Shown here one piece after another: positions 374 through 13,961 of a stretch of DNA of 64,000 nucleotides (positions are counted from its first letter, which is position 1; each line of letters begins with the position of its first letter). Source of the DNA: Pseudomonadota bacterium (GTDB lineage Bacteria > Pseudomonadota > Gammaproteobacteria > Steroidobacterales > Steroidobacteraceae). The stretch is taken from positions 1 through 64,000 of the forward strand of contig JAJZDX010000014.1 in assembly GCA_021805865.1 (NCBI GenBank), read 5' to 3'. The translations under genes were made by a program, and so were the position numbers. Under the pieces are notes generated by a model. The model was not told where the DNA came from. It did no database searches and was given only the letters and a program-made list of their open reading frames with translations.

Positions 374-802
374 TCAAACGCCGAGCACGCGCAGATCCCT
401 CAGACCCGAAAAGTCGCGGTCGTGAGTGATCAGCGCATCTGCGCCGATCATCAGCGCACTGGCCGCCTGCACCGCGTCCGCGAGTTTCAGTTTGCAAGTG
501 GCCCTCAACCGTGCCGCGCTTTCGGCGATCTCGGGATCCAGGTCCACGACGAACCAGGACCTGAGCGTGCTGCGATAGCGCTCCGCCAGCACTTCGTTGC
601 GCTCCCCCAAGGGCCCGGTGAGCACCTCTGCGAGCGTCACGGTCGTGAGCGCGAAGCGCGCAAGGCCCTTGGCGTGGGCTTCAAATACCGGTCTGAAAAC
701 GGGAGCGAGCTCGGGATGATCCTCGAGCACGTAGATGATCGGCGCGGAGTCGATCAGCACGAGCGGGTTCTCCGGTAGCCCCTCGAGGCTTACCGGTTCC
801 AT
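374..802 (-). CDS. PIN-domain toxin, VapC-like ribonuclease
   Basis: A 142-aa PIN-domain protein, the expected size for VapC-type toxins, which cleave RNA using Mg2+ held by acidic residues. The acidic set is visible: Asp18 in VLIDSAPIIY, Glu59 in TLAEVL, Asp109 in KLADAVQAA, and Asp128/Asp130 in THDRDF near the C-terminus. Its start overlaps the end of the antitoxin gene by 13 nt, the usual antitoxin-first arrangement with translational coupling. The substrate (tRNA, rRNA or mRNA) cannot be read from sequence. The fold assignment is firm; toxicity is inferred from the family. Confidence 0.9.
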   Translation of the reverse strand: MEPVSLEGLPENPLVLIDSAPIIYVLEDHPELAPVFRPVFEAHAKGLARFALTTVTLAEVLTGPLGERNEVLAERYRSTLRSWFVVDLDPEIAESAARLRATCKLKLADAVQAASALMIGADALITHDRDFSGLRDLRVLGV

Positions 803-1047
803 TCGTCTCTCAGGCGGCGCAACGTCGTCCGGCTGTCACGCCGCCCATAGAGTCCGTGACCGGTGCCGGCAAGCGACAGCAGTGAGCGCTGCGGGAACAG
901 CAGCGGCTGTTCCGAGATCGGCGCCAGTATGGCCACTGGCCGGCCGTGCCGGGTGATGATCGTCTGGCGGCCGCGCTGCGCGGCGGTGAGCAGCTCGGGT
1001 AACTGGCTGCGCGCCTCTTCGGCGCCTTTTCGCATTGGCTTCGTCAT
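790..1047 (-). CDS. Phd/YefM-type antitoxin
   Basis: An 85-aa protein whose N-terminal part (KGAEEARSQLPELLTAAQRG, then QTIITRHGRPVAILAPI) has the Phd/YefM pattern: an Ala-Arg-X2-Leu-X2-Leu helix followed by a strand with R-H-G-R-P-V-A. That fold binds DNA and the less ordered C-terminus wraps the toxin. A strong Shine-Dalgarno (CGGAGG) sits about 5 nt before the ATG. The 13-nt overlap with the downstream PIN toxin makes the two a type II module. A palindrome just upstream is the likely autoregulatory operator. Confidence 0.85.
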   Translation of the reverse strand: MTKPMRKGAEEARSQLPELLTAAQRGRQTIITRHGRPVAILAPISEQPLLFPQRSLLSLAGTGHGLYGRRDSRTTLRRLRDEWNR

Positions 1048-1409: not shown

Positions 1410-1479
1410 TATGTAGCCATGTAACTGGATGCTAAAGGCTTGCATGACGTCATTTGATATGCCATTATGTAGCCATGTA
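1410..1479 (+). repeat. Short direct repeat around the transposase start
   Basis: TATGTAGCCATGTA occurs at 1410-1423 and again at 1466-1479, where it spans the transposase ATG at 1475. The following nine bases are also similar (ACTGGATGC against CATCGATGC). The upstream copy has an ATG that soon meets a stop. It could be a regulatory duplication or a trace of local slippage. Confidence 0.6.
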
Positions 1480-3181
1480 CATCGATGCCGTTCCGAACCA
1501 CGGCTCAAGACCCACGTACCTGCTGCGCGAGTCGTACCGCATCGGGAAAAAGGTACGTAAACGCACGCTGGCCAATCTCTCGGGGCTCTCGGACGAGCAG
1601 ATCGAGGCGATGCGCGCCGTGCTCGCCGGGGTGGCGCTGCGGCCGGTGGAGGAGCTCTTTGAGGTCGTGCGCTCCCGTGCGCACGGGCACGTGCAGGCGG
1701 TGCGTGTAGCCATGCAGCGGCTGGGCTTTGAGGGCCTGATCGCTTCTCGCCCGAGCGTCGAGCGCGAGCGGGTGTGCGCGATGGTGGCCGCCCGGGTACT
1801 GGCGCCGCACACCAAGCTCGCCACCACACGCTGGTGGCACACGACGACGCTGGCCGAGGAGTATGGCGTGGAGTGCGCCGACGAGGATGCGCTGTATGCA
1901 GCGATGGACTGGCTGCTCGAGCATCAGGGAACGATCGAGCGCAAGCTCGCCGCGCGGCACCTCAAGGAAGGAGCGCTGGCGCTTTACGACTTGTCCTCGA
2001 GCTACTTCGAAGGCACGCAATGCACGCTCGCTCGGATCGGGCACAGCCGCGATGGCAAGAAGAACAAGCTCCAGGTCAACTATGGGCTCCTGACCGCCCG
2101 CAGCGGCTGTCCGGTGGCCGTTTCGGTCTACGCGGGCAATACCGCCGATGTGTCGACGCTGATGCCGCAGGTGCAAAAGCTCCGTGAGCAGTTCCGCCTC
2201 GGGCATGTGGTGCTGGTCGGTGACCGCGGCATGATCTCGCACAAGGCGATCGGGGAGCTGCGCGAGATCGAGGGGCTCGGCTGGATCACGGCGCTCAAGA
2301 GCGGTCAGATCCGCTCGCTCATCGAAGGAGAAGCGGTGCAGCTGGGGCTGTTCGATGAGCGCTCCCTCTTTGAGCTCTCGCACCCGGACTACCCCGGTGA
2401 GCGACTGATTGCATGCCATAATCCCGAACTCGCCAGACTGCGGGCACACAAGCGCCGCGCGCTCCTTGAGGCGACGGGCAAGGAGCTGGAAAAGGTGCAG
2501 ACGAGCGTCCTTGCCGGACGGCTCCAGGGCAAGGACAAGATCGGCGTGCGTGTCGGGCGCATCGTCAACAAATACAAGGTTGCCAAGCACTTCGCGCTCA
2601 CCATCGAGGAGCAGCGGCTCGAGGTCAAGGTCCTCGAGGACAAGGTCGCCGCCGAGGCCGCCCTCGATGGGGTGTATGTCATTCGCACCAACGTGGCGAA
2701 GAAGCAGATGAGCGCCGCCGACACCGTGCGCAACTACAAGGGGCTCTGCGAGGTCGAGCGGGCATTGCGCTCGCTGAAGACCGTGGACTTGAAGATCCGC
2801 CCCATCCATCACCACCTGGAGGATCGGGTGCCCGCCCACATCTTCCTGTGCATGCTCGCCTACTATGTCGAGTGGCACATGCGCGAGGCCTGGCGCGAGC
2901 TGCTCTTCGCGGACGAGGACCTCGAAGCCAAACAGCATCGCGACCCGGTGGCCCCCGCCAAGCGCTCCGAAGCGGCCCTGCAGAAGGTCCTCACGCATAC
3001 TCTGACTGACGAGACGCCGGCGCACAGTTTCCGCACCCTACTGGAGGAGTTGAGCACCATCGTGCGCAATACCTGCGTGACGCGCTCGGCAAAGACCCCT
3101 TCGCCGGCCTTCCCGATGCTCACTACCGCGAACGCCACTCAACAGCGAGCGCTGCAGCTGCTGCAACGCATCACCGTGTAG
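1475..3181 (+). CDS. IS1634-family transposase
   Basis: A 568-aa DDE transposase of the IS1634 group (IS4-like), full length and without internal stops. Landmarks in order: the N-terminal opening MYIDAVPNHGSRPTYLLRES, the first catalytic Asp in ALYDLSSSYFEG, the second in VVLVGDRGMIS about 60 residues later, and the Glu in the region after NYKGLCEVERALRSLKT. This spacing is usual for the family. ATG 1475 is chosen over a TTG at 1454 because it matches typical family starts. The gene looks intact, so the element may be active. It sits between two toxin-antitoxin-like pairs in accessory DNA. Confidence 0.93.
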   Translation: MYIDAVPNHGSRPTYLLRESYRIGKKVRKRTLANLSGLSDEQIEAMRAVLAGVALRPVEELFEVVRSRAHGHVQAVRVAMQRLGFEGLIASRPSVERERVCAMVAARVLAPHTKLATTRWWHTTTLAEEYGVECADEDALYAAMDWLLEHQGTIERKLAARHLKEGALALYDLSSSYFEGTQCTLARIGHSRDGKKNKLQVNYGLLTARSGCPVAVSVYAGNTADVSTLMPQVQKLREQFRLGHVVLVGDRGMISHKAIGELREIEGLGWITALKSGQIRSLIEGEAVQLGLFDERSLFELSHPDYPGERLIACHNPELARLRAHKRRALLEATGKELEKVQTSVLAGRLQGKDKIGVRVGRIVNKYKVAKHFALTIEEQRLEVKVLEDKVAAEAALDGVYVIRTNVAKKQMSAADTVRNYKGLCEVERALRSLKTVDLKIRPIHHHLEDRVPAHIFLCMLAYYVEWHMREAWRELLFADEDLEAKQHRDPVAPAKRSEAALQKVLTHTLTDETPAHSFRTLLEELSTIVRNTCVTRSAKTPSPAFPMLTTANATQQRALQLLQRITV

Positions 3182-3407: not shown

Positions 3408-4055
3408 CTACCGCCCGAGATCCTGTGGATCGTCGTTCTCGGCGCCAGGCTCAGCCGCCCCGCGCCCGCCTCCGCGCTCGAGCCGTTCGACAGCCTGATC
3501 TAGCCTATGCGCGGCTTCCTTCCCATATCCCCGGACGAGTTCGCGCAGCAGTTGTACATTGAAGTCCGGATTGATCTTCAGCGCCTCATCAACATCCAAC
3601 AAATCCTTCGGGCCTCCGGCGGCGAGCTTCATGGCGAGGAAATCCTCACACCCGACGACCCGAAGCGTTGAACCGCAATAAGGTATCTCGATCGCACGTA
3701 AGAACGCATCGCTCGGGAGTCCTTTGATACCCACGAGAATTTCGACGCAATTCTTGTAGGCATCCTTCAAGTCAACGACTGCCGCGATGGGATCATCAAA
3801 GCCTCCCTGTTTCAACGTGGCGGTAAATCCAGCCTCCTTGAGCCGGGACACCAATTGAGGCAGGTCCGGCAGTGCGACCTGCAGGATCACATCCATGTCC
3901 TTGGTACCGCGATCCACGCCGTGAACGGCGGCCGCGAAGCCGCCGACCACGGCGTATGGGATGCCGTCCGCGTTGAAAATGTCAACGGCATCGAGCAACA
4001 GCAGGTCGGATTGCCGCTTGCCAGTGGCTCTCATTTCTTGGTCTTGGCCTGCCAC
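3408..4055 (-). CDS. MNT/AbiEii-like nucleotidyltransferase-fold protein
   Basis: A 215-aa protein with a minimal nucleotidyltransferase signature: YAVVGGFAAAVHGVDRGTKD, with Gly38-Gly39 in the nucleotide-binding turn and the Asp53/Asp55 pair in KDMDVIL. This pattern occurs in AbiEii-type toxins and DUF6036-like proteins that transfer nucleotides to RNA or protein. The last ~25 residues are low-complexity, rich in Arg, Glu and Gly. The gene starts inside the end of the upstream small gene (25-nt overlap; 22 nt if Met8 is the true start), so the two are co-translated. The fold is clear; a toxin role is inference from architecture. Confidence 0.75.
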   Translation of the reverse strand: MAGQDQEMRATGKRQSDLLLLDAVDIFNADGIPYAVVGGFAAAVHGVDRGTKDMDVILQVALPDLPQLVSRLKEAGFTATLKQGGFDDPIAAVVDLKDAYKNCVEILVGIKGLPSDAFLRAIEIPYCGSTLRVVGCEDFLAMKLAAGGPKDLLDVDEALKINPDFNVQLLRELVRGYGKEAAHRLDQAVERLERGGGRGAAEPGAENDDPQDLGR

Positions 4056-4273
4056 GCCCGATACTGGTTTCCGGCTTCGAGGAACCTCGCGAGCACGCGC
4101 TGGTGAGCGTGAAAGTCCGCCGCGCGCTCGGCTGGACTCATGCTGCGGGTCGCTTCCCGGCGCCGCTCTTTGAGCCAGTCGCTGACTGCGCTCGGTCGAC
4201 GCGCTGCGGAGGCAATCTCCTCCGCCGTGAAGAGCCGGGGAGCCGATTTTCTCTCACTGCTCATGGCCGACAT
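4031..4273 (-). CDS. Small partner protein of the nucleotidyltransferase
   Basis: An 80-aa, charged, helical-looking protein (TAEEIASAARRPSAVSDWLK, then RREATRSMSPAERAADFHAH) with no family I recognise. It overlaps the downstream nucleotidyltransferase gene by 25 nt. A short upstream gene coupled to an NTase-fold gene resembles antitoxin-toxin pairs such as MNT/HEPN or AbiEi/AbiEii. It has no visible HEPN R-X4-6-H motif and no clear AbiEi winged helix, so the analogy is organisational only. The start may be Met1 or Met4. Confidence 0.6.
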   Translation of the reverse strand: MSAMSSERKSAPRLFTAEEIASAARRPSAVSDWLKERRREATRSMSPAERAADFHAHQRVLARFLEAGNQYRAWQAKTKK

Positions 4274-4324
4274 CCTATCTCACAATCCCCGCCGCCCGAA
4301 GTGCTCAGCGGCCCGGACTGATGA

Positions 4325-4592
4325 TTATCGCGGGATTTCTCTCCCCCGGACACCCGGCAGCGTTCCGATCACGCGGTCGATCGCTTCGATCTGCCGATCG
4401 ATCTCGTCGCCGACACAACGCCCCACGATCAGCGCGATGTCCTCATCGAGTTCGGCGCTCTGGAATTTCAGGGCAGCGCAGACGGACGGCGGAAAGAATC
4501 CGCGCCGCAGACTCGAGCGTCACCGGGCAGGGCGTGGGGCGATGCACGGCGGCGTGCGCCTTGATGGCGCGGGTATTCTTGGCGCCAGCCAT
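4325..4592 (-). pseudogene. Small gene apparently split by a frameshift
   Basis: Reading from ATG 4592 gives a 49-residue frame ending at 4443 (MAGAKNTRAIKAHAAVHRP at its start). A second, more protein-like frame (LDEDIALIVGRCVGDEID, then RQIEAIDRVIGTLPGVRG) continues in another frame to a stop at 4325-4327. Joined, they would make one protein of about 85-90 residues. I do not recognise the family. A sequencing error, a real frameshift and chance are all possible. Confidence 0.3.
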
Positions 4593-5138
4593 GTTCGGAC
4601 CTCCACAGAAGGTTCGGATGTGGTGAGCCGTCCGCCGTGGCTGATCACCACGGCGGGCGGCGCCTTGGCCAGCGCAGGCTTCAGTGGGGTACGAGCAGGG
4701 GTATCTTCAGGGTTCTGGAATCGCCAAATGCCGGCTTTCGCCGCTCCTGCCGCCAATGAGAATCCGCAATCGCTTGCGCTCGCTTTGCTGGGCGCGCATG
4801 CTGGTGTGGCGCGTTGAGCGCGAAATGCCGACGCGGCGAAGCGGAGCCGACATGACCAGGATTGCGGCGACGCTTATCATTCGCGAGCGCCTGCGACAGC
4901 GCCTCCTGCCTCCTCATGAATCCTGGCGGTGCCCCGGCGAGTACGCCGGCGAATGTTTGCGCAACGGCTGCGGCGCGCGTAGCGCTTCCGCGCAGACATC
5001 GTACGGGGTCGACTTCCCGCCAGGCGTCACGCCCCAGTCCGTCAAAACCCATCGCGCATGCTCCAAGATCCGGCAGTACGAGGGCGGGAGCCCGCGCCTA
5101 TCTCCTAATGCATCCGAACGCAGGAACCGAAAAGAATG
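4593..5138. other. No gene seen
   Basis: No frame here has a plausible start, ribosome site and protein-like composition. The frames are Arg/Ala/Pro-rich on both strands. No strong hairpin or repeat stands out. Confidence 0.4.
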
Positions 5139-5552
5139 ATGAACCTTACCCTGATCGATGCTTTCCGCCGGTTCGGCGCCAAACCGGCAAGCCGACTGAG
5201 CAGCCTCTCCGCCATGGCGGCAGACGGCGCCATGGTGCTCAAGTGTCTGCCGGCGCATTTCGGCCACCCTGCCCGCGGGGTATTGCGCTACGAGACCAGT
5301 CTTTCCGCCGCGAAGGCCGATTCCAAGGTCGTCACTGCACTCAGTGAGCACCTGACGCGCGCGCGTGATGGGAGTCTTCCGGTCAGGATGATCGTCACTT
5401 TCCCGGACGGCGAGAAAACCGGCAAGAGCGGTAGCTATCACGTCCGCCCTGATCTGACAGGAAAGATCGTGGAATTCGACGGCGACCGTTTCGTGATCGA
5501 CTTTACCCGACCGCAAGCGGCGTGTCCGCCGCTCACAGGCCGTCGCAAGTAG
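5139..5552 (+). CDS. Uncharacterised 137-aa protein, paralogue of the gene at 12.0 kb
   Basis: I do not recognise this family, but the gene is clearly real because a close paralogue lies at 11977-12399. Shared blocks are LTLxDAFxRxGAKP, SLSAMAxDGAMVLxCLPA, HPxRGVLRYE, LPVRMIV, YHxRPDLxGKxVEFDGD and FxxDFTR. The protein is short and soluble, with no signal peptide or membrane segment. The start is set at the second of two adjacent ATGs (5136 and 5139) because the paralogue begins with M-x-L-T-L. The neighbours on the other strand are a zinc-ribbon-like protein and small basic proteins. The family's function is unknown. Confidence 0.75.
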   Translation: MNLTLIDAFRRFGAKPASRLSSLSAMAADGAMVLKCLPAHFGHPARGVLRYETSLSAAKADSKVVTALSEHLTRARDGSLPVRMIVTFPDGEKTGKSGSYHVRPDLTGKIVEFDGDRFVIDFTRPQAACPPLTGRRK

Positions 5553-5558
5553 CGACGC

Positions 5559-5963
5559 TCAGTGGGGCGGTGAGCACACCGCCGTGAGCGTAAAGCATAG
5601 GCGCAACTGACACAGCGGCTTGGACCTGAAGTCGCTCACACGCGAGCCGGCGCATTCGAGCACGCCTTCGATCCGATGTGACGGATCCTCCACCACCGCG
5701 TGCACGGCCGCGCTGAGCTCGAACTGGCCGTCGCAGTCGGCATACGGACAGGGGAAAGAAAAGTACGCGCGGGCCGGAGGGTGCAGGACGTGCGATTGAG
5801 GCACCGGGGTAGCCGCGCCGCCGCCCTCGAAACTCAGCTCAAAGCGCAGCTGCTCGACCACCGGGAACATCGTGCGCAGCTTAGGCGCGGCCTCTCGGTC
5901 GCGGTGCAGCTGGGAGTAGCGAGCCTGACGCGTAGCGGTGCCGCGGGCCCGGCCGAGCTTCAT
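5559..5963 (-). CDS. Putative zinc-ribbon protein, uncharacterised
   Basis: A 134-aa protein with a Cys cluster: PCPYADCDGQFELSAAV, then GVLECAG. The Cys-X5-Cys pair plus the later Cys suggests metal binding. The region before it (MFPVVEQLRFELSFEG, then HVLHPPARAYFSFPCPY) reads as a compact beta-rich domain. I have an impression of similar proteins in other gammaproteobacteria but know no function. It overlaps the upstream 58-aa basic protein gene by 4 nt (ATGA), so the two are translationally coupled and probably work together. Confidence 0.65.
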   Translation of the reverse strand: MKLGRARGTATRQARYSQLHRDREAAPKLRTMFPVVEQLRFELSFEGGGAATPVPQSHVLHPPARAYFSFPCPYADCDGQFELSAAVHAVVEDPSHRIEGVLECAGSRVSDFRSKPLCQLRLCFTLTAVCSPPH

Positions 5964-6136
5964 GTTCCGCCAGCCAATGTTGAATCGCTCGGATCACCGG
6001 GCGGATCAGGCAACGGCGTCACGATCTCTCCAGAGCCATTAGGTCGAGCCGTCCGGCGCTGCTGCTTCTCGAACTGGCGGGCCTTCCGGCTCAGTTCCTT
6101 CTGCTTCTTGACTTGGCGGTAGTTCTGTCTCGGCAC
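5960..6136 (-). CDS. Small basic protein, 58 aa
   Basis: Starts at GTG 6136, chosen because AGAGGAAA lies about 6 nt upstream. The longer frame reaching 6199 lacks such a site. The N-terminus, VPRQNYRQVKKQKELSRKAR then QFEKQQRRTARP, is a highly basic single helix of a kind common as tiny uncharacterised proteobacterial proteins. The C-terminus is Pro/Gly-rich. The stop overlaps the ATG of the zinc-ribbon-like gene (ATGA). It may bind nucleic acid, judging only from charge. Confidence 0.6.
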   Translation of the reverse strand: MPRQNYRQVKKQKELSRKARQFEKQQRRTARPNGSGEIVTPLPDPPGDPSDSTLAGGT

Positions 6137-6264
6137 CAGATTTCCTCTGTGAGGGCGGATCGGCAGGATGCGTTTCGGAGCGGTCAGCCCGCCGGCCATC
6201 GATTGGATGGCTGCGCCGACTACTGCGCTCCGGTCAGTAGTGACCCCCAGAACTTAGCGGGTCA

Positions 6265-6465
6265 TCAACTCGCGCGAGGGATCGCCACCCGCTCCACGTT
6301 CGATCGATCAATACTGATTATGAGCATGCGGATGCGCTCCTTTGCCTGATACAGCAGCGCCCGGCCGCCGGCGTCCTGTCCATTGATATGGCCGTCGAGC
6401 TCCTCAAGCAGCTTGTAGACCTCTCGCGCCCCGGTCATGTCGATTGTATCCGCATCGCTGCTCAT
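6265..6465 (-). CDS. Uncharacterised 66-aa protein
   Basis: The ATG at 6465 is preceded by AGGTGA at good spacing. The sequence is acidic, then helical (EVYKLLEELDGHINGQDAGG, then LLYQAKERIRMLIISID), with an amphipathic appearance and no membrane segment or Cys. I do not recognise a family. It sits among other short minus-strand genes, but a gap on either side leaves its operon membership uncertain. Confidence 0.5.
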   Translation of the reverse strand: MSSDADTIDMTGAREVYKLLEELDGHINGQDAGGRALLYQAKERIRMLIISIDRSNVERVAIPRAS

Positions 6466-6549
6466 GGTTCACCTGTTGGTTTCCGCGAGCGGGTGCGGTT
6501 GTTTCGGGCCGTATCACCACTTCCCCGGGGGTCATCACGTTCGCCGCCA

Positions 6550-6663
6550 TCACGCTCGGAATGGTTTGCTTGCCCTCTTTTCCCGCTTTGCCGCTCGCTT
6601 CTCCAACAATGTCTTGGCCGGCTTCTTCTTGCTGTCCTTCTTTCTGTCCATTCCCTTGCTCAT
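6550..6663 (-). CDS. Very small Lys-rich protein, 37 aa
   Basis: The frame MSKGMDRKKDSKKKPAKTLL, continuing EKRAAKREKRASKPFRA, is a short lysine/arginine-rich peptide of a type often found as tiny conserved proteobacterial proteins. GGAG stands 6 nt before the ATG. Its ATG overlaps the stop of the upstream discoidin-like gene (ATGA at 6660-6663), so the two were once coupled. A longer frame over the same bases has no comparable ribosome site and a less protein-like composition. Confidence 0.7.
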   Translation of the reverse strand: MSKGMDRKKDSKKKPAKTLLEKRAAKREKRASKPFRA

Positions 6664-7198
6664 GTGTCGCTCCATTCCGAGGCAAAGAGGCGCAGCGAGC
6701 TCAATTTCGCCGGTCCCGAGCCGTGTTTGTCAGGGACGATGGTCGAGCGAGGGCGGCCGATCAGGGGCGGATTCAAGCGCTGCACTTCGCGCTGAAAACT
6801 CGCATCGCCGGCGCTGAAGGTGTACTCCCGGACGAGCGTCCGGCGGCAGGTCCGGCCCCCGTTCGAGGATACTTCGGCGCTCACTTCCTGCGTCCTCGCA
6901 CACGCGCAGTCTCCACCTCGCAGATCATCCAAGAGACACTCTGTGGTTGATCGAACTCCACGATGATACGTTCCATGGTATTGGGCTCGGCGCCAGACCG
7001 GAACGTGCTGTCGCGACCGTAATGCCCATCGATCAGGTCGTCGATCGGACAGCCTGGATCATCCGAGGTGTAGGCAAGGGCCGCCCGGCTCGCAATATCG
7101 ATCTCGCCGGCGAACGCGGCGGGATTCTCGCCCTCCTTCGGCAGCAGCCGCTTTCGCACACCGGATGAGCTCGAGAGAGAATCAGTGCTTGACTGCAT
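6660..7198 (-). pseudogene. Discoidin-like (carbohydrate-binding) protein, frameshifted
   Basis: The ATG at 7198 follows a strong GGAGGTGAG. The first frame gives a jelly-roll-like sequence (SDDPGCPIDDLIDGHYGRDS, then TMERIIVEFDQPQSVSWMIC) and stops at 6881. The adjacent frame continues naturally (RTQEVSAEVSSNGGRTCRRT, then TIVPDKHGSGPAKLSSLRLF) to a stop at 6660. One missing base (or two extra) near 6893-6900 explains the break. Repaired, the product would be about 179 aa, a plausible single discoidin-type domain. A sequencing error cannot be excluded. Its end overlaps the 37-aa gene. Confidence 0.65.
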
Positions 7199-7498
7199 CT
7201 GAGCTCACCTCCGCAACGTCTGCACAGCTCATGCTTCGGCCGCGCTCGAAGCTTCGATTGTCGCTGTACCTCATAACCGGGGGAGTATCCTACTGATCAG
7301 CAGTGGGGCGGTCGCTTCTCTTCCGGCGCGCGCAGGAAGCGCGTCGAGAGTTCTGAGTTCGGATTGTAGCACTTTGCAGCGGAGGAAGCCTCGCCATGAA
7401 TGTCTGCACTGCGAAACGTCGCGGCAAGCCTTACGCCGATAGCGCCAGCCCGCTATCCGTCAGGCGGCATCTACGCGCTGCGTTCGCTGCCGGATTCC
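7199..7498. other. Intergenic stretch, nothing firm
   Basis: Lies between a divergent-looking upstream region of the discoidin-like gene and the end of the next minus-strand gene. A GGAGG followed by ATG at 7396 on the plus strand opens a 101-codon frame, but it runs antisense to the next gene and its composition is not convincing. Confidence 0.35.
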
Positions 7499-7864
7499 TC
7501 AGGAGCCCGAGTTGGCGTCGTGACTGCCTGCGGAATCGATCAGTTGCGGGAGCCGGTCAGGTTCCGAGCGTCGCCGCTGCTCCTCACGTACCTGCTCGAG
7601 CGTCAGGCGCGTGGCCTTCGCAACGACATCTAGCACAGCGTGCGCCGATCCACGCGGCAGCGTCAGGCGATGCAATCTTTCCCAAGCTCGGATTCGCATA
7701 GCGGGAGTATTGAGTTCAGACGACTGTTCGATCCGTTCCCGCTGCGCGCGCTCCGCCTCCTCATTCTGCTCGCGCATAATCCGCGCGGGGTAGCCCGTTG
7801 GCGGATCGGCATGATCAGCCGCCGGCGACAGATGCGAGCTGAGATTCCAAGGGTTCGAAGACAT
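7499..7864 (-). CDS. Uncharacterised 121-aa soluble protein
   Basis: Start set at ATG 7864 (AGGT 8 nt upstream) rather than a longer frame to 8203, whose extra N-terminus is Arg/Pro noise. The mature part is mainly helical and charged: IMREQNEEAERAQRERIEQS, then RIRAWERLHRLTLPRGSAHA and LTLEQVREEQRRR. There is no signal peptide or membrane segment. The PRGSAHAVLDVVAKAT block looks like a short folded domain, but I do not recognise the family. Confidence 0.55.
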   Translation of the reverse strand: MSSNPWNLSSHLSPAADHADPPTGYPARIMREQNEEAERAQRERIEQSSELNTPAMRIRAWERLHRLTLPRGSAHAVLDVVAKATRLTLEQVREEQRRRSEPDRLPQLIDSAGSHDANSGS

Positions 7865-8195
7865 ATGATTTACCTGAGGTGAATACCCCGCCCGCACAGA
7901 CACAGGCAACGTCTCGCGCCCGTTTGCGGCCGCTTTTTGCGCTGGCAGATTTTGCTGGTGGAAAGCCAGCCGGTGTGGCGTTGCGCGCGAGGCCGGACGA
8001 GCCGAGGGGCCCTGAAATGCGGCCACTCTACACCGACGGTGAATGTTTCGCGTGCCTTTCGGAATAGTATGGGTGTCAAGGCGTCTGGTGACATCCGAAG
8101 GTCCGGCGGCTTTCGTGAAAATGGCGCACACTTCCCCAAGCGGCGCCCCGGGTCGGCGCTTGGCGGGCACAGTAGGCGTAAAACGGAGGCATATC

Positions 8196-8303
8196 ATGGG
8201 CAATCATGCGGTTGAAGCGGGATGGCAGCGATTCCTGGATAGGCTGAAGCAGCTGTGGGGAAAGCTCGGTCAGGGCGACAAACCCTCACCGGCCGCGGGA
8301 TGA
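8196..8303 (+). CDS. CsbD-like small protein, possibly truncated
   Basis: The ATG follows GGAGG at good spacing. The 35-residue product (GNHAVEAGWQRFLDRLKQLW, then GKLGQGDKPSPAAG) has the amphipathic W-x-x-(F/L)-x-x-x-(L/V)-K-x-x-W-G-K-L pattern of CsbD/stress-response proteins, normally 55-70 aa. Here it ends just after G-K-L, and a transposase remnant begins about 50 bp later. The gene probably lost its 3' half in a rearrangement. Whether it still makes a useful peptide is unknown. Confidence 0.5.
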   Translation: MGNHAVEAGWQRFLDRLKQLWGKLGQGDKPSPAAG

Positions 8304-8349
8304 GCGGGATATTGCGATGAGCGCAGTCAGCCGCGAAGATGGAAATGCG

Positions 8350-8469
8350 GAACGTGTCAATCTTCTGCAGGGTCTCGGCGATCAGCTGCTCGGCGAGCTC
8401 GGCCGATTCGCGCTGCGCGATCATCCATCCCACGACGTAGCGGCTGAAGATGTCGAAGGTGACGTACAA
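8350..8469 (-). pseudogene. IS3-type transposase (integrase core) fragment
   Basis: About 40 codons read LYVTFDIFSRYVVGWMIAQR, then ESAELAEQLIAETLQK, the stretch around the first catalytic Asp of the rve integrase core in IS3-type OrfB proteins. The match stops abruptly after LQK, so the second Asp and the Glu are missing. Upstream sequence is degenerate in all frames. This is a dead fragment next to the truncated CsbD-like gene. Confidence 0.7.
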
Positions 8470-8808
8470 GTGGTCATGCCGGATACGGCATGACTTCCTG
8501 TATCTGAGGCGTAACGCCGTCCGTTTTCCCGCGCTCGTTCAGGATTTCTGAAGGAGCATTTCCCGTCGCAGTCCGGGACATTCGGCCCGAGAGCGGCGGC
8601 TCGGTGAGGCGGTGGGCGCTCAACGCCTGGCCAATAGCGAGACGGCCGATCGTTCCAACAGCCCTCGCGCGGCACGGCACCATAACGTGAGTGTCGCCAC
8701 AGTCCGCCCTCGCATACTTCTTCAGGGCCGACGGAACGACGGGCAAGTCAGGTCCTGCGTCCGAGACTACTTTTGGCGGGCAAAGGAGGGCTCATTTCGG
8801 ATGGCGCC

Positions 8809-8950
8809 TCAGCGATCCGGATTGCACAGGTGCTCGACGATGAGAATGCCCGCACCGAGCGGCCCCGCGTGAACCCGGCGAATGCCATCGCCCGAATCGT
8901 CGATGTTCAGGCAATCGACTCCCGCCCGCCCGACATCCCGCCTCCACATA
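8809..8950 (-). pseudogene. Cyclase / kynurenine-formamidase-like gene fragment
   Basis: One frame reads RRDVGRAGVDCLNIDDSGDG, then IRRVHAGPLGAGILIVEHLC, ending NPDR and a stop. This resembles the C-terminal part of cyclase-family proteins (V-x-x-x-G-x-D-x-L-S-x-D ... H-x-x-L-L-G-A-G-I-x-I-x-E-x-L). The N-terminal metal-binding H-x-G-T-H-x-D segment is absent and the terminal strand is lost. I read it as a short relic. Recognition is by eye only. Confidence 0.5.
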
Positions 8951-9094
8951 AGGCGACTGGTCAGCCCAGAGACCGGCCCCCGCGCTCATCCGGTGTTGAT
9001 GACTCGGAACTTCAGCCTCTTTGCAAGCCCATCGGCAGCTGCGGCGGCCTGCCGCTTATCGCGCAGAACAACGGGCCGAGTCCGCTTGTGCGCA

Positions 9095-9970
9095 TTACCG
9101 GCACCACTCTTCCTGATCACGCAGGACCAGGTGAGCACAGCCCTCGGGCAGGTGTGCGGGAACTGGCAGCGGGTCACCACGATGCCACAAGCCCAGGTGC
9201 CTGAGAATTTCCGCCATTTCAGAATCCGCGACCTGCAGCACATTTCCGTCCGCGTACCCCGTATGCCCCCGGTAGCGCAGGATGCGCACATATTGTCCGG
9301 ATTTCCCCGCCTTATACACCTCCACCCAATACCTGTACGGCGCGTGCGCTGTGGGGTAATCGACGATTATGTCCCCTCTGAGCGGCCCGCGCCGCACAAA
9401 TCGCGTCGCCGGGTTGTTGTCCCGCCCTTTGACGTTCAAGAACACCCGTACGAACCGATTGCTTCCCCTCTCATAACGATATAACTCCGTGGCGGTTCCA
9501 CAGGTTCCGAATGCGTTTAAAGCATCACACAGCCGCAGCAAGACAAGAGGCCCGCGACGATTCCGCCCTGCATACACCACCCGCGCAGCCAGGAGATGAT
9601 ACGCCGTAGTAAACCAGCCGGGCTCACCGGCAATTTTCCAGGAGAATCCCCGCGCACAATGCGGCCTCACTCCCTTGACGAAGCAGACCGCCAGAGGCCC
9701 ATGCTCTTCCACCGGCGCCGTCTGCACGGGCGGCGGACCGTCTTCCCGCACGATGACCAGCCTCCACCGCGACAGCGTTCGAAACGGCACCGTCAGGTCA
9801 ACGTCAGAAATTACCTTCGGCTCTTGAACACCGGCGTTCGACAAAGCGGAAACCACCGCTCGATCAACCTCTGTTGCCGTAGATTCCCCGGCCGGCTGCG
9901 CCCCCAGAGCGCAGTTGGCGACCAACGAAAGCAAAAACGCGCAGCCCATCAGCAAGCATCTGGCGGGCAT
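9095..9970 (-). CDS. Secreted protein of unknown function
   Basis: A 291-aa protein starting at ATG 9970 with a classic signal peptide (MPARCLLMGCAFLLSLVANC, cleaved after ALG-AQ). A GTG 13 codons upstream is possible but would push the hydrophobic core inward. The mature part is mixed alpha/beta with several Cys (CFVKGVRPHCARGF, LCDALNAFGTCGTA, PEGCAHL, EEWCR) that could form periplasmic disulfides. I recognise no domain. It is isolated between gene remnants on both sides and is intact. Confidence 0.7.
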   Translation of the reverse strand: MPARCLLMGCAFLLSLVANCALGAQPAGESTATEVDRAVVSALSNAGVQEPKVISDVDLTVPFRTLSRWRLVIVREDGPPPVQTAPVEEHGPLAVCFVKGVRPHCARGFSWKIAGEPGWFTTAYHLLAARVVYAGRNRRGPLVLLRLCDALNAFGTCGTATELYRYERGSNRFVRVFLNVKGRDNNPATRFVRRGPLRGDIIVDYPTAHAPYRYWVEVYKAGKSGQYVRILRYRGHTGYADGNVLQVADSEMAEILRHLGLWHRGDPLPVPAHLPEGCAHLVLRDQEEWCR

Positions 9971-10221
9971 GCCGTGGATGCGTGACAGCGCGCGCGATCG
10001 GTGCGGCACTCAATTAAGTCCAAACAACATTCGTCGCACCATATCGTCTTTTCAGTGCGCCGACAAGCGAAGGACCCACCTCCATCAGTCTGCGCAGCGG
10101 CCCGATCTCCTCTCCTCCAGGCGCTGCCCGATCCGATCGACGCAGCCCGGTTCGCTGGCGGGAGCCCGGGCACGCCGCGCTGCCGGATTCCAGCGCGACA
10201 TGTCTGGGACAGCTTCAGCCA

Positions 10222-10700
10222 GTGGAAGCCTTGCGCAAGATTTCGGCGAGCTCGGCACCGGGCCTGTCGGTCGATATGGCGTACTACCGCATCAAGATCC
10301 GCAGTGCGATCAGCCGGCTGAGCGCTCAACAGACCCTGGCCGACTGCTACGAGCCTCAGGCCGCCTTTGCCTGTTCGGGCATCGGGGCCGATCCCCCGAC
10401 GGCCAACCGACGGTCGTATCGACCGAAGGATTCAACAGCCACAGCATCGCAACCGACTGGTTGACCCGGGGGACTTCGATACACCCTGCCCACATCATCC
10501 GGGGAGCTCTCGGTGCACGGCGATGTGGGCTGGACGCCCGAGGACCGGATCGCTACAGCGACTGCCAACGGCACATCGGTCGTGGATATCGCTGGGGTCG
10601 AGCTCGGCTCGGGGTCACCCAGTGGCATTCCCCGCTGGGACGGCACCGGGAGCCTTGACTGGCGATACCGGCGCCGGGATGCGCCGGCCTGGCTGGTCAG
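10222..10700 (+). pseudogene. TonB-dependent receptor, C-terminal part, decayed
   Basis: Outer-membrane barrel strands are readable in different frames. One frame has LRKISASSAPGLSVDMAYYR, then IKIRSAISRLSAQQTLADCY; another LPTSSGELSVHGDVGWTPED; and near 10625-10675 GIPRWDGTGSLDWRYR. These are in the order seen near the C-terminus of TonB receptors, but at least two frameshifts separate them. The plug domain and N-terminus are missing upstream. No intact product is possible. Confidence 0.6.
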
Positions 10701-11299
10701 GGCGTTCGGACCCATGACCGAAGCATGCACCGATCGCTATGCCGGGACCCCGTTGAGCTGCGCGGGCGCCCGGACTGTGCTCGGAGCCGGACCTGACGAA
10801 CTCGAGGCTGTCGCGCCGTCGGTGACGATCCGGAAGCTACGCGGCGCGAGGAACTCCCATCGCCACGCAAGGCCAGGCCGGATCAGCTCGGTGAGCATCT
10901 TTCGAGTCGGCAGGGAATGGGATGGCGGAGCCACCAGCCGAGGAGCCCGCGGTAGGCACGGAAAGCCGAAACCTGCGACAGCGGGTGAAGAACGATGCCG
11001 TTGAAGCCACCGCGCAGCGGGACGTCCGCGGCAAGTGAACGAGTGTCGACGGGTACCTTTCAGGCTATTGCTGAGTAAGGATGACCGCAGGGAAGTACGA
11101 GGCGGAAACCTCCCGGAGACGCGAGGCATCCGAACCCTGATCGGGAGGGCGGAACAAGACCTGGGGGATTCGCACGTGCGCCCGGGCCGCAAACCACCCC
11201 GTCCTCGTGCATTTGCCAAGGTTCGGTGGTGGCGTGCCAGAACCCGATGCGCCCCTGCACCTGGCGCGATCGGCTCTGCAGCCCGGAATCAGTAAGTCA

Positions 11300-11332
11300 C
11301 CGCCCCCGGCTGGTTGTGCCAGCCAGGGGCGG
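11300..11332 (-). terminator. Strong hairpin downstream of the RRM gene
   Basis: CCGCCCCCGGCTGG, a five-base loop, then CCAGCCAGGGGCGG: arms of 14 with one mismatch, 20 bp past the stop of the RRM gene. There is no clear U-run on either strand, so it may stabilise the mRNA 3' end rather than act as a classical Rho-independent terminator. Confidence 0.55.
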
Positions 11333-11352
11333 CCAGGGATCAAGATGACGTA

Positions 11353-11643
11353 TCAGTAACGACGCGATCCGCCGCCGCGGAAACCGCCGCCGCCGGACCG
11401 CTCGCGCTCCTGCGCCTCGTTCACCTTGAGGGCCCGCCCCTCGAATTCGGTGCCGTTGAGCGCCTGCATGGCGCGCGAGGCATCGGCGCTCGACATCTCC
11501 ACGAAGCCAAAACCACGTGGACGGCCGGTGTCGCGATCCGAAATCAAAGAAACCTTCTCGACTGTCCCATGCTTCGAGAACAGCTCACGGACCGACTCAT
11601 CGGTCGCCGTGAAGGGGAGATTTCCAACATATAGCTTGGTCAC
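11353..11643 (-). CDS. RRM-domain RNA-binding protein
   Basis: A 96-aa single RNA-recognition-motif protein followed by a Gly/Arg tail. RNP-2 is TKLYVGNLPF at the N-terminus and RNP-1 is RPRGFGFVEM around residues 43-52. The tail is GGGGFRGGGSRRY. This is the size and layout of bacterial RRM proteins related to eukaryotic hnRNP domains, thought to bind single-stranded RNA, often in cold or stress. The start is GTG 11643, which places RNP-2 at the N-terminus as in the family. The 50-60 nt leader is less GC-rich than its surroundings, compatible with post-transcriptional control. Confidence 0.9.
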   Translation of the reverse strand: MTKLYVGNLPFTATDESVRELFSKHGTVEKVSLISDRDTGRPRGFGFVEMSSADASRAMQALNGTEFEGRALKVNEAQERERSGGGGFRGGGSRRY

Positions 11644-11976
11644 TAGACAATACTCACGATAGAAACGAAGGGAGAGGCAGATATAACTACCTCTTGGCCC
11701 GGGAAGCTTTCCAGGGGTGGCGGACAAGGCCGGATCGCGCCGGGAGGCGGTAAAGGCCAAGGCAGTCAAACCGAAAACACACGAGCCGGCGGGCAGGTTA
11801 CACGACTTCGCGCACTGGTGCCGAACTTTCGCATTCCCTTCGCAATGGCGCCCCAAATCGCCTTGAGATCACTTACCGGAAGGCGCACTCTCGGCGCATG
11901 ATGCCCTTCAGCCGTCCGGTCACGGGCCCTCCCGAGACCCGGTAGCGCATTCGGCCCAGGTACCTCCGGGAATCCT
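11644..11976. other. Divergent intergenic region
   Basis: Separates the RRM gene (minus) from the 140-aa paralogue (plus). It must hold both promoters. No protein-like frame and no obvious palindrome were found. Confidence 0.4.
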
Positions 11977-12399
11977 ATGAGCCTCACCCTGTTCGATGCG
12001 TTCGGCCGGTACGGCGCCAAGCCCGGCAACCGCCAGAAAAGCCTCTCGGCGATGGCGAGCGATGGCGCCATGGTTCTCAATTGCCTGCCGGCGTATTTCC
12101 GCCACCCCTCGCGCGGCGTGCTGCGATATGAAGCCAAGCTCTCGCTCGTGCAAGCGACACCCGAACAGCTCGGAATTCTCGGCCAGCACCTCACCGACGC
12201 GCACGACAACCGCCTGCCTGTTCGGATGATCGTGAGATCGCTGCCGCCTGAAACGAACCGCAGCAAGACGCTCGGCTATCACATACGCCCCGATCTGCTC
12301 GGCAAGGTCGTGGAATTCGACGGGGACCACTTCATCGTCGACTTCACACGAGCGGCACCCGCCTCTTCGGCGAGCGCTTCGGCACGCCGCAACAAGTAG
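11977..12399 (+). CDS. Uncharacterised 140-aa protein, paralogue of the gene at 5.1 kb
   Basis: Shares most of its length with the 137-aa protein at 5139-5552: SLTLFDAFGRYGAKP, SLSAMASDGAMVLNCLPAYF, HPSRGVLRYEAKLS, LPVRMIV, GYHIRPDLLGKVVEFDGDHF and IVDFTR. The central linker (ATPEQLGILGQHLTDAHDN) and Ala/Ser-rich C-terminus diverge. There is no membrane segment or signal peptide. The strict conservation of the Asp-Gly-Ala-Met and Arg-Gly-Val-Leu-Arg-Tyr-Glu blocks suggests a constrained fold, but I do not recognise it. Both copies are on the plus strand about 6.8 kb apart, with dead genes between them. Confidence 0.75.
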   Translation: MSLTLFDAFGRYGAKPGNRQKSLSAMASDGAMVLNCLPAYFRHPSRGVLRYEAKLSLVQATPEQLGILGQHLTDAHDNRLPVRMIVRSLPPETNRSKTLGYHIRPDLLGKVVEFDGDHFIVDFTRAAPASSASASARRNK

Positions 12400-12500
12400 C
12401 TGCGTCTCGCCCCGCGCAAAAGTCGACGCCCTCTGCGGCGAGGTCCTCCGGCTCATCGAGCAACGGCCCATGGCCGCGCCCGGGGGCCAGGAGGAGCGCG

Positions 12501-13070
12501 TCAGCCCTTCACACGGATTTGCGCCACCGCCTGCTTCAGGATCGAGATGATCCGGCTCTTCTCCTCGGCGGTGCTGCGGCGCTTCTCGCGCACCGCCTGC
12601 TGAAGCTCACGGCGCACCGCGGCAAGCTCGCGCCAATCGGCGTCCTCGTCATCGCCGCCGAACACCTCGCGCAGGCGGCCCATCTTGCGACCGATCTGCT
12701 CGAGTTGACTCAGCATGGCGTCGGCTGCGCCCTGATTCTCCGTGAGATACCCGCAGCCCGCCTCGGTGATGCTGTAGAGCTTCCTGACGCCCTCGGAAGT
12801 GACGCGGGCATAGCCCATTTCCTCGAGCCAGGTGAGCGCCGGGTACACCATTCCGGGACTCGGGCTGTAGAAGCCGTCCGAGCGCTCCTGCAGGGCCTTG
12901 ATGAGCTCGTAGCCATGGCTCGCGCGCTCGGCGAGCAAGGCGAGCAGCACGAGCTGCAGATCGCCCGAGGCCAGCCGGCGGCCGGCGCGGAACGCTCCTC
13001 CGCCCATACCCATGCCGCCCATGAAGCCGGCGGAAAAGGACCCGAACCGTCGGCCTTGCCGATGCCCCAT
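12501..13070 (-). CDS. PadR-family transcriptional regulator
   Basis: A 189-aa protein. After a Gly/Met-rich N-terminal stretch (MGGMGMGGGAFRAG) comes the PadR winged helix: GDLQLVLLALLAERASHGYE, then LIKALQERSDGFYSPSPGMV and YPALTWLEEMGYARV. A C-terminal coiled helix (MLSQLEQIGRKMGRLREVFG) provides dimerisation. The layout resembles YqjI-like PadR proteins with a metal-binding-type glycine-rich arm, but the arm here lacks obvious His/Cys clusters. An AT-rich palindrome at 13161-13174 in its upstream region is the likely operator. Confidence 0.9.
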   Translation of the reverse strand: MGHRQGRRFGSFSAGFMGGMGMGGGAFRAGRRLASGDLQLVLLALLAERASHGYELIKALQERSDGFYSPSPGMVYPALTWLEEMGYARVTSEGVRKLYSITEAGCGYLTENQGAADAMLSQLEQIGRKMGRLREVFGGDDEDADWRELAAVRRELQQAVREKRRSTAEEKSRIISILKQAVAQIRVKG

Positions 13071-13961
13071 GAAATACGCCAGGCGATTGTCGAGATCCTG
13101 ATGCCGGCCGCGAGGATGAAAGGGCCGATGCAGGATGCTCCCCTTATATTTACGACAGATATATCTTACGATATGTTTTTAGATAATCAAGCAAGCGGCA
13201 CGCGCACGCCACCCAAATCGATCGCCCGCCTCGAAGTGCCGGTCGCGGCCGCCCGGATCAACGCTCGGCGACCGCACCTCGCGCTTGGGGGAGACTGGAG
13301 CATCCCCGCCTCGTCCCTCGATGCGCTCCGGTCATACGACGCCACGGTGCGGCCCAGCGACACGAGCAACACATCCATCGGCGAAAATGCTTCCTGCCTC
13401 CAGGTTGCGGCAGGTCCCTTGACCGCAGATCGGCCGATCGGGTGCATACCGATCGTCCTCGCCGGCCGGAGCCACTCGCCCCGCCCGGGGACACCGACGC
13501 TGCACCCGCGCGAGAGCTGACTTTTCGCATCCCCTCGAGGAGCCGTCGCCCGCAGATCGGCGAATCCGAATCTCGCCGGACAGCCGTAACGGAAGCGTCA
13601 CGCGACGCATGGTATATTTCGCGCCGCCGGGAATCGGATGATGACAATAAAAATCGTACTGTCACCTTTGAAGCTCTACGCGGAAAATTGGCCGCAGGGC
13701 AGCGTGTTGCGCGTCTTGCGGATCGGGATGGCGCACTGTGCGCCGCAGGCTTCCTGACTCCGCCCGGCCGATCTTGAATCGAGTTGACCGCCCCGCCCCG
13801 CCATCGCTCTGCGCTCACCGGGCCGCCCTGGCCCAAGAGATCGTCCGTTCGCGTGATTGCGCGCCGCCAAGCCGGCGCCGCCGGCTGCGGGTTGCCCATG
13901 AGACGATGCGAACGATCCGCCAACCCATTACCGAGATGCGCCCCTAGAGGAAAAAATTGAG
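13071..13961. other. Long divergent intergenic region
   Basis: An 891-bp stretch between padR (minus) and the phosphoesterase (plus). It contains one AT-rich palindrome (13161-13174). Frames on both strands are low-quality Arg/Pro/Ser-rich sequence and I accept none as a gene. An AGAGG precedes the phosphoesterase ATG. Confidence 0.4.
13161..13174. promoter_or_regulatory. Palindrome, likely PadR operator
   Basis: ATATC-TTAC-GATAT, an inverted repeat of 5 bp with a 4-bp spacer in an unusually AT-rich island, about 90 bp upstream of padR. PadR-type regulators typically bind AT-rich dyads like this near their own genes. Binding is inferred. Confidence 0.55.

Follow-up and report, generated by a model that had tools for sequence, protein, structure and literature searches.

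SRA-like domains have been described chiefly as specificity modules of modification-dependent nucleases and as readers of methylation in eukaryotes. Here we describe two paralogous genes for candidate stand-alone SRA-like proteins, found in a 64,000-nucleotide stretch (the window) of contig JAJZDX010000014.1 from a Pseudomonadota bacterium of the family Steroidobacteraceae (assembly GCA_021805865.1). Among the described systems, TagI (PMC6212794; PDB 6ghs) is an SRA-HNH modification-dependent endonuclease with an N-terminal reader domain, like the endonucleases that are homologous to our family. HHPV4I (PMC10101028, PMC11037411) has the order PUA/SRA, winged helix (wH) and HNH. Both possess a nuclease, whereas the window proteins stand alone and are nuclease-free. 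ScoMcrA is a 489-residue type IV enzyme in which the SRA domain (5zmm) is accompanied by sulfur-binding and HNH domains, unlike our single-domain family. The relevant passages of PMC7641849 describe stand-alone EVE and ASCH proteins near restriction-modification systems. These are likewise single-domain members of the PUA superfamily with no nuclease of their own, but according to those passages they form another subfamily and lie in restriction and toxin-antitoxin contexts, while our family lies beside genes for an RRM protein and a conserved protein that we call D1. With a probability of roughly 0.55, we consider the two proteins to be nuclease-free SRA-like nucleic-acid readers of an accessory chromosomal cassette, homologous to the N-terminal domain of HNH endonucleases.

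The two genes are:

5139-5552, + strand: copy 1, putative stand-alone SRA-like protein of 137 amino acids; based on the open reading frame (ORF), paralogy, the ratio of nonsynonymous to synonymous substitution (dN/dS) and profile homology to HNH-endonuclease N-terminal domains
11977-12399, + strand: copy 2, putative stand-alone SRA-like protein of 140 amino acids; based on the ORF, paralogy and dN/dS, and the sequence used for the structure model

Both ORFs are complete and intact, as the original prediction had them, and the three motifs that it quoted (SLSAMAxDGAMVLxCLPA, HPxRGVLRYE and RPDLxGKxVEFDGD) are found in both copies. Copy 1 has an extra in-frame ATG at 5136; the ATG at 5139 is the start common to its relatives. 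In BLASTP the copies are identical at 75/124 positions (60%; 154 bits, E 2e-54). A search of the 4.68 Mb assembly returned both copies plus a single other match, at E 0.27, that we take for noise, with no other convincing copy there. An assembly artefact in which one copy duplicates the other is excluded, since both lie on the same contig (C82) and their DNA differs by ~29% over 385 aligned columns. The family had been described as unknown, and this stands: neither copy has a match in Pfam, NCBIfam or PHROGs at E up to 1, no PDB sequence model fits, and no well-characterized housekeeping family emerged from the profile searches. A PADLOC match of copy 1 to DrmA (E 0.008) was dismissed as noise. 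Judged by these sequence searches, the stand-alone family is unnamed and without a Pfam or NCBIfam model. A literature search on stand-alone SRA proteins and bacterial RRM proteins (with most subscription journals outside its scope) listed no paper on this family; PMC7461809 is relevant to stand-alone SRA proteins. For the tree and dN/dS we used 26 sequences, excluding L023 and L027-L030, which are fragmentary or decayed, second fetches of the same place, and the remote L031. Alignment A1 (22 rows) includes L031, otherwise omits the same items, and also omits the near-identical L009, L011 and L013-L015. Alignment A7 (19 rows) adds L130 and L131 and omits L031 together with some close sequences.

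The link to endonucleases comes from profile comparison. A remote stand-alone relative (L031, in genome G019) aligned with the N-terminal end of an HNH endonuclease carried by three Xanthomonas citri plasmids, and a class-wide profile matched two HNH proteins with the family domain in genome G110; in these HNH proteins the domain is N-terminal. When the family (A7) was aligned using hhalign with four such N-terminal domains (A6), the probability was 98.8% (E 1e-16 over 127 columns), compared with 0.1% for the family against the unrelated D1. By these profiles the family is homologous over the whole domain to the N-terminal domains of HNH endonucleases from G110, G453 and the X. citri plasmid. 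The X. citri protein matches Pfam HNH_2 (E 8e-13), and the HNH part of the homologue P0001 gives a below-cut-off match (E 5e-12) to NF045808, a phosphorothioated-DNA restriction endonuclease. P0001 used as query matched in 75/398 genomes of the phylum, nearly always to C-terminal parts; its N-terminal domain was matched in G110, G453 and G387, the last being a stand-alone protein of 134 amino acids. The homologous endonucleases look like modification-dependent (type IV) restriction enzymes. Four of them (P0001, P0002, L064 and L038) may share the three-part layout of HHPV4I, with the family domain, a middle region and HNH; the middle region in the homologues, a putative wH, gave a below-cut-off match to DUF7669 (E 0.015). 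By eye, the stand-alone L136 (G927) and L031 look like intermediates. No match to nuclease families was found in either copy or in the tested neighbors (RRM, D1 and PadR, and D2 through a homologue), and the family is therefore not filed as a type IV restriction enzyme. In G110 the two HNH endonucleases with the family domain (L040 and L042, contig C32) are 80% identical and lie about 3.6 kb apart, with ORFs nearby that by eye resemble ankyrin repeats.

The fold was approached separately. The AlphaFold model of copy 2, made with a 22-row alignment, has a pLDDT (predicted local distance difference test) score of 86 and a pTM (predicted template modeling score) of 0.79. Among the 50 matches listed by VIA-align, the first 40 are all SRA or SRA-like readers, called so by title, by residue range or by what is known of the enzyme, and the first other fold appears at Z 5.0. 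The mouse lattice entries in that list are presumably UHRF1, judging by residue range. The best match is the SRA domain of ScoMcrA (Z 7.7, root-mean-square deviation 3.8 over 111 residues, 6% identity), followed by PvuRts1I (4oq2, Z 7.3), SUVH6 (Z 7.2), KRYPTONITE, and TagI (Z 7.0, deviation 3.4 over 102 residues, 16% identity). The five best PDB matches in Foldseek are also SRA proteins (KRYPTONITE, SUVH5 and SUVH6; E 7e-4 to 6e-3, probability 0.97-1.00), and those after them are unrelated folds. In the viral library the best match is a ScoMcrA-like SRA protein of the haloarchaeal virus HHPV3, related to the source of HHPV4I (E 2.6e-3, probability 0.99). The model thus predicts an SRA-like barrel. 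Sequence ties the family to HNH endonucleases and the predicted fold ties it to SRA domains; these separate lines both lead to modification-dependent restriction enzymes, and it is their agreement, above any one score, that makes us call the family SRA-like. The pocket of TagI contains Tyr55, Asp58 and Tyr67, as given in the relevant part of PMC6212794. On threading by eye, F41 and Y51, which are invariant in A1, might be aromatic walls of such a pocket, comparable with Tyr55 and Tyr67. The same threading places no acid at the spacing of Asp58 in the family, making specificity for cytosine doubtful.

The surroundings of the two genes contain further conserved ORFs:

11353-11643, - strand: gene for an RRM RNA-binding protein, divergent from copy 2, a cassette member (Pfam RRM_1, E 8e-22)
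5559-5963, - strand: D1, conserved protein of 134 amino acids, convergent with copy 1, in which four Cys are invariant (CPYxDC...C...C; alignment A5, 13 rows)
5960-6136, - strand: D2, small basic protein of about 58 amino acids, near the family gene in 13 of the 20 fetched loci
6550-6663, - strand: D3, Lys/Arg-rich ORF of 37 amino acids (tblastn matches in L051, L052, L110, L134 and L135)

We read the neighborhoods of 20 of the 28 places matched by copy 2 (L059 and L060 among them have a decayed family gene), of 15 D1 places, and of all eight places outside the genus. The original prediction had placed the copies in unrelated surroundings; this fails, as the relatives show a usual order, with a divergent RRM gene upstream, then the family gene, and D1 convergent downstream. 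In 17/20 fetched loci a divergent RRM gene is no more than 2.5 kb away from the family gene (L052 by a partial match only), and in two of the three loci without it (L058 and L061) the family gene is close to a contig end. D1 is near the family gene in 17/20, convergent in 16 and on the same strand in one. In the window the cassette is split: copy 1 has D1, D2 and D3 (5559-6663) and no RRM gene, while copy 2 has the RRM gene and no D1. The genome holds three further RRM matches, one with a stop. Several loci have a DUF4279 protein among further conserved ORFs past the RRM gene or nearby. D1 has no Pfam or NCBIfam match above cut-off, nor does a D2 homologue from L045 match either database. In L043, L045, L046, L106, L107 and L111 a gene that by eye is EF-G-like lies near the RRM/D1 cassette, whether the family gene is present or not, and this points to a fixed site in the chromosome. 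Upstream of the split cassette the window encodes an IS1634-family transposase (1454-3181, + strand; NCBIfam E 1e-94 over nearly the whole profile), and we speculate that it may have helped to rearrange the cassette. Elsewhere in the window, 374-1047 (- strand) holds a PIN-domain-like ORF (374-802) and, ahead of it, an ORF for a Phd-like antitoxin (790-1047), by eye a VapBC-type toxin-antitoxin pair, and 3408-4055 (- strand) encodes a DUF6036/AbiEii-like nucleotidyltransferase by Pfam search. An Rfam scan of positions 3500-13500 at gathering scores gave no match.

With copy 2 as query, 22/99 related genomes match, all from one genus (22/58 of its genomes, counting decayed and fragmentary copies). 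The family profile matches 19/296 genomes of the order (11 in the genus, seven in other genera of the family and one in another family), the class-wide profile 2/274 (the window's own genome and G110, where the matches are the HNH proteins), and the broader profile A3 4/398 genomes of the phylum. Named relatives come from metagenome-assembled genomes of uncultured Proteobacteria or Gammaproteobacteria. Remote stand-alone relatives are L031, L090 (G387) and L136, and stand-alone forms extend to further genera of the family and to a second family. D1 is found in 45/99 relatives. It is present somewhere in the genome, if not always adjacent, in 22/22 genomes of the genus with the family and 17/36 without (Fisher p 1e-5, uncorrected for relatedness or genome size). 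Among the 15 D1 loci that we fetched where the family gene is missing, 11 retain the RRM gene; five of the 15 come from genomes with the family gene at another place. As RRM and D1 are often together in its absence, we take these two for the core and the family gene for an accessory, subject to loss. Such loss is observed at the RRM-D1 locus of G029 and G049, which have decayed copies; these served as positive controls in a search of RRM-D1 gaps (E 4e-40 and 2e-21). Among nine gaps without the gene, G042 has collinear remnants (two pieces of 26.2 and 24.3 bits, E 5e-5), so loss there is likely, and the weak match in G037:C127 scores 24.6 bits, as does the best among 90 shuffled gaps. The occurrence in 22/58 genomes, the decayed copies, and the D1 loci that retain RRM without it together make it clear that the family gene is not indispensable.

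In the reading that we favor, each copy would consist of one domain, an SRA-like beta-barrel of the PUA superfamily. It lacks the region that follows this domain in the homologous endonucleases, and their HNH nuclease. We infer that the family binds nucleic acid and reads bases: the barrel would inspect a flipped or unpaired base in its pocket, and the basic C-terminal tail may help to grip the backbone. As no nuclease is attached, the effect would be regulatory, masking or that of an adaptor instead of cutting. The gene would be an optional member of a chromosomal cassette with the divergent RRM protein, the Cys-motif protein D1 and the small basic proteins.

Several results weigh against this. 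No PDB sequence was matched by profile at E 1; with the limit raised to E 10, profile A1 matched one mitoribosomal protein only (E 1.5), and A3 gave five matches at 0.06 or worse, none of them an SRA domain. Pfam SAD_SRA (PF02182) does not match the family at E 1, and we therefore use the name SRA-like and not SAD_SRA member; PF02182 matched 0/185 genomes of the class and also 0/14 control genomes, so that result says nothing about absence. The best VIA-align score (Z 7.7) is below 8, a range that by the tool's note is common for models without a clear match, and the TM-scores in Foldseek are low (0.36-0.43). The model of the full HNH homologue is poor (pLDDT 46) and lends the SRA-like fold of its domain no independent support. 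In the relevant part of PMC10101028, deletion of the SRA domain of HHPV4I left specific cleavage intact, and the wH, not the SRA domain, was needed for cleavage dependent on N6-methyladenine (m6A). As the SRA domain is dispensable there, the fold by itself does not imply that a mark is read. Of the eight loci outside the genus, one has the RRM gene nearby, none has D1 and two have D3. Lastly, an association with 5-methylcytosine (m5C) methyltransferases was not replicated, as set out below.

A tentative possibility is an epitranscriptomic partner: RNA that is modified or structured would be bound by the PUA-type barrel, which would cooperate with the neighboring RRM protein in handling RNA. 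The divergent RRM gene adjoins the family gene in most fetched loci of the genus, the cluster holds the small basic proteins D2 and D3, and RNA readers are found among PUA-superfamily domains according to the relevant parts of PMC7641849 and PMC11037411. However, divergent genes may have separate functions, and the nearest folds are DNA readers. The persistence of RRM with D1 where the family gene is missing, and the single RRM neighbor among the eight loci outside the genus, also count against this reading.

It is improbable, in our view, that the proteins are protective maskers or anti-restriction proteins, covering modified sites on own or incoming DNA and so shielding it from modification-dependent nucleases. 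The homology to a restriction-enzyme-like specificity domain with the nuclease absent would fit this, as would the patchy occurrence in the genus. Methyltransferases are also commoner with the family, the m5C type in 9/22 genomes against 3/36 without it, and the HsdM type in 11/22 against 7/36 (one of the seven below the family cut-off). Yet the m5C signal comes from the first 37 genomes of the genus (7/14 with the family, 1/23 without; p 0.002) and is absent in 21 held-out genomes (2/8 and 2/13; p 0.62). In the first set the control PF02384 gave a similar split (9/14 and 3/23). Genomes with the family are larger (mean 4.4 against 3.1 Mb, p 4e-5), and once genome size is in the model m5C adds nothing (p 0.31); the 5mC link was therefore rejected. 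The two PF00145 matches of the window genome (G000) are on another contig (C70). With no linked cytosine methyltransferase, the locus is not filed as a restriction-modification system. An anti-restriction gene would be expected in phages and plasmids, but copy 2 as query matched no phage or plasmid record at E limits of 0.01 and 0.001, and of the viral contigs 56 stretches fit a pattern and none encodes a relative. On these grounds an origin from a mobile element or phage was also rejected. The remote relatives L031 and L090 do match the three X. citri plasmids, via the HNH endonuclease, and match no phage record.

Both copies are under purifying selection. Comparison of copy 1 with six orthologues by the method of Nei and Gojobori (own script) gives dN/dS of 0.09-0.26; copy 2 and three orthologues give 0.21-0.33, and the two copies compared with each other 0.31. 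Such low values indicate that both are kept by selection, and the original prediction is borne out in this. By its topology, the FastTree tree of 26 sequences places copy 2 beside the genes of G007, G036 and G055 and groups copy 1 with those of G049, G037, G011, G019 and G052. Since they fall in different clades, they are old paralogues and not the result of a recent duplication. That the genes are functionless remnant specificity domains of a dead HNH endonuclease, as the homology to the endonuclease N-terminal domain and the decayed copies in G029 and G049 might suggest, is very improbable given dN/dS of 0.09-0.33 across both copies, complete start-to-stop ORFs of similar length in many genomes (most with the basic tail), no hit in the window genome (E 1e-5) when the HNH protein P0001 was the query, and the stand-alone forms beyond the genus.

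We regard as doubtful the proposal that the family is a modified-base reader uncoupled from restriction, which would read a mark on DNA or RNA and act with the divergently encoded RRM protein as a prokaryotic analogue of base readers that serve regulation and not defense. If true, a nuclease-free bacterial SRA-like reader, under selection and beside a gene for an RNA-binding protein, would make it possible to ask whether bacteria employ such readers in regulation instead of defense, and an otherwise anonymous family would acquire a testable activity.

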